A DNA stretch of 9,795 bases from Candidatus Berkelbacteria bacterium (GTDB taxonomy: Bacteria > Patescibacteriota > UBA1384 > JAHJRZ01): the NCBI GenBank assembly GCA_026397195.1, contig JAPLVI010000060.1, forward strand, positions 1 through 9,795, read 5' to 3'. Shown here in pieces: positions 3,295 to 4,370 of the stretch (position 1 is the stretch's first letter; the number at the start of each line of letters is the position of its first letter). The notes under the pieces were generated by a model that saw only the letters and a list, made by a program, of their open reading frames with translations, made no database searches and was not told the DNA's origin. Position numbers and translations under genes: made by a program.

Positions 3295-3336
3295 TTTAGT
3301 TGCGCTGCGGGGTAGAGCAGTAGTAGCTCGTCTGGC

Positions 3337-3813
3337 TCAATCTTTTGAGAGACCTAGATTTTTCAAACGTTCTTTAAAAATGTGAACAAGTTTAATGTTA
3401 ATAGCTACTATCCTCATAATTCCGAATGGATATTTTCGTTTCCCTCCAAGATCTTTCTTGATGTAAGGTTTGTTAAATCGAGAAGTAGGAATGTTAGTTA
3501 GTTTTGACCAATACTTAAGACAGGTTTTGTAAGGCAGGGTGTCATGGCAATGGATTACTGCCTTGATCTTTTTCTCTTCGAGTCGGCAGACGACTCTCAA
3601 GAATTGAAGATACGTGGTGATAATGTTTGGATTACCATTCGACAATGAAAGCTGAGTTTTGTCTCCTTCGGTAGCCCAGAGCACTAATCCAATGATATTC
3701 AGGGAGCGGTTTTTTCTGGGATTGTAATCGAAAGGATCACCGAGAGGATTTCGTAGATTATAAATAGTTTTACTGCGAGTTAAAGATTTCGCCATATACT
3801 GGTAGTATACCAT
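3337..3813 (-). CDS. LAGLIDADG-like homing endonuclease, antisense in intron
   Basis: This 158-residue protein is encoded on the strand opposite to the tRNA and intron. IIGLVLWATEGDK (residues 40-52) looks like a divergent single LAGLIDADG motif with acidic residues at its end. It is followed by SNGNPNIITTYLQFLRVV and the family-typical YWSKLTNIPTSRFNKPYIKK (101-120). A single motif would imply a homodimer. The expected role is to cut intron-less tRNA-fMet genes and so spread the intron. The stop codon (3337-3339) spans the 5' splice junction. There is no SD; ATG3795 (residue 7) is an alternative start just below a TATACT box on the minus strand. The cyanobacterial tRNA-fMet intron is known for a PD-(D/E)XK enzyme, so this is a different pairing. 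The endonuclease call is inferred from motif and location. Confidence 0.65.
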   Translation of the reverse strand: MVYYQYMAKSLTRSKTIYNLRNPLGDPFDYNPRKNRSLNIIGLVLWATEGDKTQLSLSNGNPNIITTYLQFLRVVCRLEEKKIKAVIHCHDTLPYKTCLKYWSKLTNIPTSRFNKPYIKKDLGGKRKYPFGIMRIVAINIKLVHIFKERLKNLGLSKD

Positions 3814-4055
3814 AAGTTCACATTTTTAGGAAATTTTTGGGCGCCTTGTTTGGAAACATTCAAGGAGATTAGCTGTCAAATTCGGGGAAGTCCTTTTAAC
3901 GGGATAATCCCGAGCCAAGTCCCAATATGGAATTGGGGAAGGTGTAGAGACTAGTTGGCAGCTGCCGTCATTCAAAAATATTTGAATCGGCAAAGGGATA
4001 GTCCAGACTACAAACTCCGAAAATTTTCGGAGGCGATGAAAATCGTAGTAGTAAG
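3338..4055 (+). other. Group I self-splicing intron in tRNA-fMet
   Basis: The intron starts after U33 and ends with G4055, as group I introns do. The core lies at 3840-4055: P3 (3871-3877 with 3957-3963), P4 (3882-3886 with 3909-3913), P6 (3921-3926 with 3932-3937), P7 (GACTA 3949-3953 with TAGTC 3999-4003), P8 (3964-3967/3988-3991 with an inner helix) and P9 (4015-4032). A last hairpin with a GAAA tetraloop is at 4034-4045. R (GTGTAGAGACTAG) and S (GATAGTCC) elements are recognisable. A partial P1 can be drawn between TGGCT of the exon and GACCTAGA near 3351. The ORF occupies the 5' half. I did not assign a subgroup. Confidence 0.88.
3375..3828. repeat. Inverted repeat bracketing the intron ORF
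   Basis: TAAAAATGTGAAC (3375-3387) and its exact complement (3816-3828) are 13 bp long and extendable by a few imperfect pairs. In the intron RNA they would form a stem (P2-like or peripheral) with most of the ORF in its loop, leaving the catalytic core free. The left arm is also coding sequence for the ORF C-terminus. Confidence 0.6.
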
Positions 4056-4102
4056 CATAACCAGGAGGTCGGAGGTGCAATTCCTCCCCCCGCTATTTAA
4101 AC

Positions 4103-4137
4103 ATTCGAAATCCGAAGCACGAAATTCGAAATCCGAA
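4103..4137. repeat. Short tandem repeat, 21-bp period
   Basis: ATTCGAAATCCGAA occurs at 4103-4116 and again at 4124-4137. It belongs to the AT-rich CGAAATCCGAA-type filler that I recall from intergenic regions of many uncultured bacterial genomes. It has no coding content. Confidence 0.6.
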
Positions 4138-4155
4138 ACAAATTGACAAGGCAGT

Positions 4156-4239
4156 TGTCATTTCGAACGCAGTGAGAAATCTTAAGGGATCTCTCGCCGG
4201 AGCCTGCACTGAGCGAAGCGAATGTGGCTCGAGATGACA
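4156..4239. repeat. Imperfect palindromic intergenic repeat
   Basis: TGTCATTTCGA (4156-4166) pairs with TCGAGATGACA (4229-4239). An inner GAGAAATC/GATCTCTC helix and a CGCAGTG/CACTGAGCG pairing give a branched fold. It resembles the widespread GTCATTTCGAACG-type dispersed repeat. The remaining gap up to the next tRNA holds TTTAGGAT repeats and a CCGCCGGCGG palindrome; I see no gene in it. Confidence 0.6.
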
Positions 4240-4295
4240 GGGTCAGTTTAGGATTTAGGATTTTGAGTTTTGAAATTCCCGCCGCCGGCGGACAT

Positions 4296-4370
4296 GCCAG
4301 TATAGCTCAGCGGTAGAGCAGAGGCATCATAAGCCTTGTGTCGCAGGTTCGATCCCTGCTACTGGCACCA
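4296..4370 (+). tRNA. tRNA-Met(CAT), probably elongator
   Basis: This is a complete, uninterrupted 75-nt tRNA including an encoded CCA. The acceptor is GCCAGTA/TACTGGC, the D arm GCTC/GAGC with loop AGCGGTA, the anticodon stem GAGGC/GCCTT with anticodon CAT (4328-4330), and the T arm GCAGG/CCTGC with loop TTCGATC. All standard landmarks are present, including a paired 1-72, so it is not an initiator. The CAT anticodon also fits tRNA-Ile2 (lysidine-modified), which I cannot exclude. It lies 200 bp after the split initiator tRNA and 31 bp before ftsH. Confidence 0.93.

Follow-up and report, generated by a model that had tools for sequence, protein, structure and literature searches.

A group I intron with an antisense predicted LAGLIDADG-type endonuclease gene in the initiator tRNA gene of a Candidatus Berkelbacteria bacterium

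The initiator transfer RNA (tRNA) gene of a Candidatus Berkelbacteria bacterium (phylum Patescibacteriota) is split by a group I intron between U33 and C34 of the anticodon loop, and most of the length of this intron is taken up by a conserved gene on the opposite strand, which encodes a predicted LAGLIDADG-type homing endonuclease. The locus lies on contig JAPLVI010000060.1 of assembly GCA_026397195.1, a stretch of 9,795 nucleotides (nt) that was analysed as a whole and is referred to here as the window. It is very probable that the intron and its antisense open reading frame (ORF) form a mobile element that copies itself into intron-free initiator anticodon loops and that would splice itself from the tRNA precursor. 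The conservation of the antisense gene, together with an empty site in a sister genome, points to a mobile element, most likely a homing group I intron with an exchanged nuclease gene. An initial annotation of this locus had recognised the tRNA, the intron, its site, its core and its terminal G, all of which are borne out below, and had overlooked both the antisense gene and the empty site.

The split gene, its intron and the empty site

In its intron mode, ARAGORN places a tRNA-Met(CAT) at 3306-4095, interrupted after U33 by an intron of 718 nt, whereas without this mode it finds in the window the neighbouring tRNA-Met at 4296-4370 alone. Once 3338-4055 is removed, the joined exons give a full cloverleaf of 72 bases with the marks of an initiator, namely a CAU anticodon, a U1/U72 mismatch (no standard 1-72 pair) and A11-U24. 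Three G-C pairs beside the anticodon loop are usual in bacterial initiator tRNA, but not universal. Two of the three are present here (30-40 and 31-39), with U-A at 29-41, and the intact initiator gene of the sister genome G001 has the same anticodon-stem pairs, 29-41 U-A included. As CA is repeated at 3338-3339 and 4056-4057, alternative cuts are conceivable on paper; removal of 3338-4055 is preferred because it alone leaves the intron preceded by U and ending in G (G4055), and the introns of relatives likewise end in G. A purpose-built finder of split CAU tRNAs, which also detects both exons, gave no matches in 432,255 shuffled bases. The locus is confirmed as an initiator-type CAU tRNA gene split at U33/C34 by a group I intron.

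A search with the Rfam group I model, RF00028, gave a match of 61.6 bits within the intron (cut-off 50, E 5e-14). The core pairings (Table 1) were assessed in an alignment of 13 introns, all of them interrupting CAU tRNAs at the site seen in the window, six of initiator type (the window, L042, L105, L149, L166 and L194) and seven of Ile2 type (L096, L129, L133, L163, L178, L184 and L190); four others of the 17 found were left out, L191 because it did not match the alignment seed, and L103, L151 and L193 because they are of a different, shorter type. Of 573 alignment cells, 93.9% accommodate the structure derived from the window, which extends from P3 to the P9 region. Two-sided changes occur in 110 cells, compared with 36.5 +/- 5.4 in shuffles (none of 500 as high) and with at most 20 when the partners were slid as a control. 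The last pair of P7, for example, is A-U in eight introns, U-A in three and G-C in two. The weakest core helix is P5 (69.2% of cells), and only two of the aligned sequences have any bases in the outer P9 hairpin. The group I core from P3 to P9 is thereby supported by covariation.

At the 5′ junction, the predicted fold pairs the 5′ strand of the anticodon stem with 3354-3359, within the last codons of the antisense ORF, as a likely P1. U33 pairs with A3348 in this fold, with G3351 as an alternative by eye, and the usual U.G pair at the splice site is clear in L103 only. P1 was dropped as proof of the splice site, since the folds of four 5′ junctions disagree on one form.

The sister genome G001, of the same genus and the sole other member of its family in the collection searched, has an intact initiator gene with an empty site (93% identity over 72 of 72 bases). 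Gene order is common to both, running through a pilin-like gene, DivIC, the initiator tRNA (fMet), tRNA-Met and FtsH, and the window matches G001 up to 3339 and then again from 4056. A chimeric contig had been considered, as G+C falls from ~58% to ~32% near 2.6 kb, and was dropped because in G001, too, a similar pilin-like gene precedes DivIC, fMet and FtsH. G001 itself carries group I introns in tRNA-Phe and tRNA-Ala(CGC), and both of these tRNAs are uninterrupted in the window's own genome (G000).

BLAST of the joined initiator gene against G000 (842,208 bases in 183 contigs, 79.5% complete) returned its two halves only and no intact copy. A covariance model of initiator tRNA, built from six genes, detected the intact initiator of G001 at 86.1 bits. 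In G000, G159, G149, G246 and G224, all of which have split initiators, no score exceeded 52.3 bits. Among the test genes, an intact initiator that had not been used to build the model (L102) scored 74.2 and the neighbours of known initiators at most 52.3; one tRNA-Met of L038, ambiguous in type, scored 56.2, close to the 52.3 of elongators. The tRNA-Met(CAT) next to the split gene is probably an elongator, and tRNA-Ile(UAU) is also present in G000. The split gene could conceivably be a dying copy, with an intact initiator in the unassembled part of the genome, and the completeness and fragmentation of G000 would allow for this, as an intact copy could hide in the missing fifth. We nevertheless hold it to be very unlikely, as exons and intron core are intact and the covariance model found no intact initiator in G159, G149 and G224 (each given as 100% complete) or G246 (93%). 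With no intact initiator gene detected, normal initiation would require splicing, and the dependence of the G000 cell on splicing to initiate translation, which the initial annotation had asserted, is a reasonable inference. Every protein of such a cell would start from a tRNA first spliced by the ribozyme of a predicted mobile element, and a mobile intron would be able to persist in a seemingly irreplaceable single-copy gene of a reduced genome.

The antisense gene and its overlap with the exon junction

The antisense ORF encodes 152 amino acids (aa), and an in-frame ATG upstream at 3813 would extend it to 158 aa. It contains the motif IIGLxLWATEGD, in which E43-G44-D45 is unchanged in all 45 of the 45 proteins aligned, and a motif helix with an acidic end, as in LAGLIDADG enzymes; E43 is the likely catalytic acid. 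A search for homologs found 114 others. Named records with relatives number four, all from Patescibacteria, and one scan of viral contigs found no relative. No Pfam or NCBIfam profile matched the 45 family members (a LAGLIDADG profile being an aid to detection rather than a defining trait), and the ORF of the window gave no PD-(D/E)XK match. A sequence search of the PDB returned chance matches only, and the best Foldseek rows for the predicted fold were unrelated proteins (YfiB, E 0.025). Nine more distant relatives were compared with Pfam; seven showed a helix-turn-helix, mostly under the cut-off, two showed none, and none of the nine had a LAGLIDADG match. The motif and the predicted fold would fit a LAGLIDADG homing endonuclease despite the lack of a match to a curated profile. 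The archaeal LAGLIDADG enzyme I-DmoI has two motifs in one chain, and its identity to the ORF is 14% in the aligned part. Because the ORF has a single motif, its protein is probably a dimer.

For comparison with the homolog in G159, the ratio of non-synonymous to synonymous substitution rates (dN/dS) was dropped, as dS is saturated, and differences by codon position alone were used. A promoter scan for the ORF found four sites against 2.7 +/- 1.6 expected, none of them beside its start. By eye, a TATACT-like box lies immediately upstream of the start.

It has also to be considered that the antisense protein is a maturase aiding the folding of the intron, instead of or besides being a DNA endonuclease. 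Conservation of the ORF would accord with such a role, but the invariant E43 is what is expected of a nuclease, and some introns of this type are too short to contain an ORF (L149, 220 nt; L166, 245 nt), so that we regard a maturase as very unlikely.

The stop codon of the ORF, TGA, is the complement of 3337-3339, that is, of the exon base U33 and the first two bases of the intron, and its last codons overlie the intron strand predicted to pair with the 5′ exon as P1. In 93 of 115 homologs, eight residues separate the conserved C-terminal motif from the end of the protein, a constant distance that is expected if those homologs end at the same junction; the remaining 22 are of other types, truncated or unmatched by the motif. 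Five homologs run on beyond the usual ends. The N-termini of P0029 and P0102 decode to the antisense of the 3′ exon and the adjoining end of the intron (compatible at 27 of 27 bases, 4032-4058), as does that of P0039 (53 of 60 at 4026-4085), with 0 of 500 shuffles as good in each case. The C-terminus of P0041 decodes to the antisense of the initiator 5′ exon (28 of 33 at 3307-3339; shuffled maximum 24, 0 of 500), and that of P0107 to the antisense 5′ exon of L105 (34 of 39, against at most 27 in 300 shuffles), but P0107 does not fit the window's own 5′ exon (26 of 39, a score that 16 of 500 shuffles attained). That these run-on homologs decode to initiator sequence suggests, as far as proteins can tell, that the family occurs in initiator tRNAs elsewhere too. 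P0107 has ATQGYK in place of ATEGDK and an odd N-terminus. Its frame continues past the usual stop and into the antisense of an initiator exon, a read-through implying that U33 is replaced there by C, and from its sequence P0107 looks like a decaying copy.

Table 1. Positions of the features discussed, numbered along the window.
Feature	Position	Strand	Basis
Initiator tRNA 5′ exon, positions 1-33	3306..3337	+	ARAGORN, split-CAU-tRNA finder; matches intact G001 gene
Group I intron, 718 nt, terminal G	3338..4055	+	Rfam, ARAGORN, covariation
Initiator tRNA 3′ exon, positions 34-73, CCA not encoded	4056..4095	+	ARAGORN, split-CAU-tRNA finder
Likely P1, anticodon-stem 5′ strand with 3354-3359	3332..3359	+	Predicted fold
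Antisense ORF, 152 aa, predicted LAGLIDADG-type homing endonuclease	3337..3795	-	Start 3795, stop codon 3337-3339
Stretch matched by RF00028	3825..4031	+	Rfam
P3 (3873-3877/3957-3961), enclosing P4, P5, P6 and P6a	3873..3961	+	Covariation
P4	3883-3886/3909-3912	+	Covariation
P5	3890-3894/3901-3905	+	Covariation
P6	3915-3916/3941-3942	+	Covariation
P6a	3921-3926/3932-3937	+	Covariation
P7	3949-3953/3999-4003	+	Covariation
P8, between the P7 strands	3963-3967/3988-3992	+	Covariation
P9 region (4007-4011/4048-4052), hairpins 4015-4032 and 4034-4045	4007..4052	+	Covariation
Uninterrupted tRNA-Met(CAT), neighbour	4296..4370	+	ARAGORN, Rfam

Split CAU tRNAs and their cargo across the phylum

Searched against 379 genomes of the phylum, the antisense protein has a match at E <= 1e-6 in 83. 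Beyond G000, the close type occurs only in G159, a member of another class (E 6.2e-79), where it is also antisense in an initiator intron (730 nt, U33/C34); no further close ORF was found in 55 genomes of the window's own class or in 13 of the class of G159. Identity between these two ORFs is 62.5% (95 of 152), and between the FtsH proteins of G000 and G159 it is 57%. Transfer between lineages is likely.

RF00028 matches at E <= 1e-6 occur in 164 of the 379 genomes, 132 of them over the cut-off (strict filters). Among the matches listed, all but three were examined, and split initiators were found in at least 10 genomes. Nine are split at U33/C34 (G000, G159, G149, G246, G102, G244, G141, G029 and G354), with U1-A72 in G029 and no standard 1-72 pair in the others. 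The initiator of G224 (L152) is split at U36/A37 by a different intron of 271 nt. Eight Ile2-type CAU tRNAs in the phylum are split at U33/C34, seven of which could be aligned with the core of the window. In intron mode, ARAGORN named the 17 split CAU tRNAs as Met (4), Leu (11) or Ser (2); given this misnaming, initiator tRNAs annotated as ‘missing’ in such genomes may be split genes.

The nuclease gene varies among the nine U33/C34 initiator introns. An antisense LAGLIDADG-type gene is present in two (the window and L042) and a sense PD-(D/E)XK gene in two others (L105 and L194), and the remaining five are only 192-245 nt long and were left out of the gene scan. The nuclease of L105 is a homolog of I-Ssp6803I (PDB 2OST, E 2.2e-56; PF11645), and that of L194 also matches PF11645. 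The second, shorter intron type (L103, L151 and L193; 192-216 nt) occupies the same U33/C34 site of initiator tRNAs. Among Ile2 introns longer than 400 nt, an antisense HNH-like gene was seen in L096 (over the Pfam cut-off), L129 (under it) and L190 (by eye), L133 (418 nt) being left out of the scan. Many Asn and Thr introns of more than 500 nt have, by eye, an HNH-like gene in sense orientation.

Distant relatives of the ORF occur in other genomes of the phylum (L043-L070, L074-L076 and also L038-L040). They are mostly 200-230 aa long, often have an N-terminal helix-turn-helix and lie immediately upstream of a tRNA gene in the same orientation, with a tRNA within 130 nt at 30 of the 31 best-scoring loci. 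The tRNAs concerned are Thr, Tyr, Phe, Trp, Asn, Ile-UAU, Gly, Leu and Ser. At nine of the loci the tRNA bears an intron according to ARAGORN, and five of these introns are listed by Rfam as well. Such an arrangement could represent collaborative homing.

We think it rather likely that in this phylum the anticodon loop of CAU tRNAs, initiator and Ile2 alike, serves as a shared docking site for unrelated homing nucleases, the cargo of one U33/C34 intron type being a sense PD-(D/E)XK gene, an antisense gene of the unnamed LAGLIDADG type or an antisense HNH-like gene. The LAGLIDADG-type family would be locked there, since a stop codon finished by U33 and last codons doubling as the guide strand of the ribozyme tie nuclease and ribozyme to one site, and it would be a branch of the larger tRNA-bound set that sits directly upstream of many different tRNA genes. 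The nuclease would then be exchangeable in family and orientation while the site and the ribozyme type stay.

Proposed homing pathway and related systems

In the pathway that we propose, the precursor would be transcribed with the intron inside, and the P3-P9 core would, as in its family, bind guanosine at P7, ligate U33 to C34 and free the intron ending in G4055, a step on which normal initiation would hinge. The antisense ORF would be expressed from a separate transcript, and its presumed dimer would cut the DNA of uninterrupted anticodon loops. Repair would then copy the intron and the ORF into the cut gene, which is consistent with the empty sister site and the patchy occurrence of the intron.

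The initial annotation had gone further in calling the intron a single point of control over translation, but its retention as a regulator, whose splicing efficiency would set the supply of initiator tRNA and thus the translation rate, is highly improbable, for although splicing would be rate-relevant in the five split-initiator genomes without an intact copy, an Rfam scan of the window found no riboswitch or other control element, G001 does without the intron, split initiators were found in only 10 genomes of 379 (a lower bound), most of the intron is antisense gene, and patchy presence and exchanged nuclease genes fit homing better than control of translation.

Introns in initiator tRNA are already known. 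The tRNA-fMet intron of Synechocystis has a PD-(D/E)XK nuclease in P1 (PMC3073962). The cyanobacterial I-Ssp6803I-type intron shares with the window the gene, the anticodon loop and a nuclease gene in the P1 region, whereas the nuclease of the window is unrelated, being predicted as LAGLIDADG-type rather than PD-(D/E)XK, and is antisense. The Patescibacterial relative L105 has the intron type and U33/C34 site of the window, but an I-Ssp6803I homolog as cargo. Group I introns have also been described in tRNA-Ile2(CAU) of Acidovorax and Burkholderia (PMC8450103). The eight Ile2-type tRNAs from this phylum share the U33/C34 split site with the window, but they are another tRNA, and their cargo, where present, is antisense and HNH-like (L096, L129 and L190).

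Within the candidate phyla radiation (CPR), I-ShaI is described as a single-motif LAGLIDADG enzyme of rRNA insertions, found in the 23S rRNA gene and assigned to Pfam LAGLIDADG_1 (PMC11270868). As far as the available excerpt of that paper goes, the ORF of the window resembles this type in its one motif, similar size, group I intron and kind of host, but it matches no LAGLIDADG_1-type profile and sits antisense in a tRNA gene. Group I introns in the tRNAs of CPR genomes are mentioned elsewhere, without detail in the portion available (PMC8172020). No description of an antisense nuclease in an initiator-tRNA intron was found in searches of an open-licence library, a scope outside which most subscription papers fall, including the original cyanobacterial ones. 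Within that scope, three things are new: the predicted family of nucleases, its position on the antisense strand with a shared stop codon, and the replacement of one nuclease family by another at a single site.

Some further features of the two sister genomes were observed. Three tandem pilin-like DUF1559 genes of ~58% G+C occupy 70-2555 of the window, beside genes of ~32-45%, and G001 has at least one pilin-like gene at the matching place. The 200-nt spacer between the split fMet gene and tRNA-Met (4096-4295) contains short repeats, and the two genes are adjacent in G001. The 23S rRNA gene of G000 (L002, G000:C6) looks interrupted at ~1501-1661, where there is a weak group I match of 23.2 bits, under the cut-off. 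The window's FtsH is free of insertions, whereas that of G001 (G001:C15, L224-L226) is encoded by one open frame (1527 aa) that contains two intein-like, in-frame insertions of ~1.3 kb.
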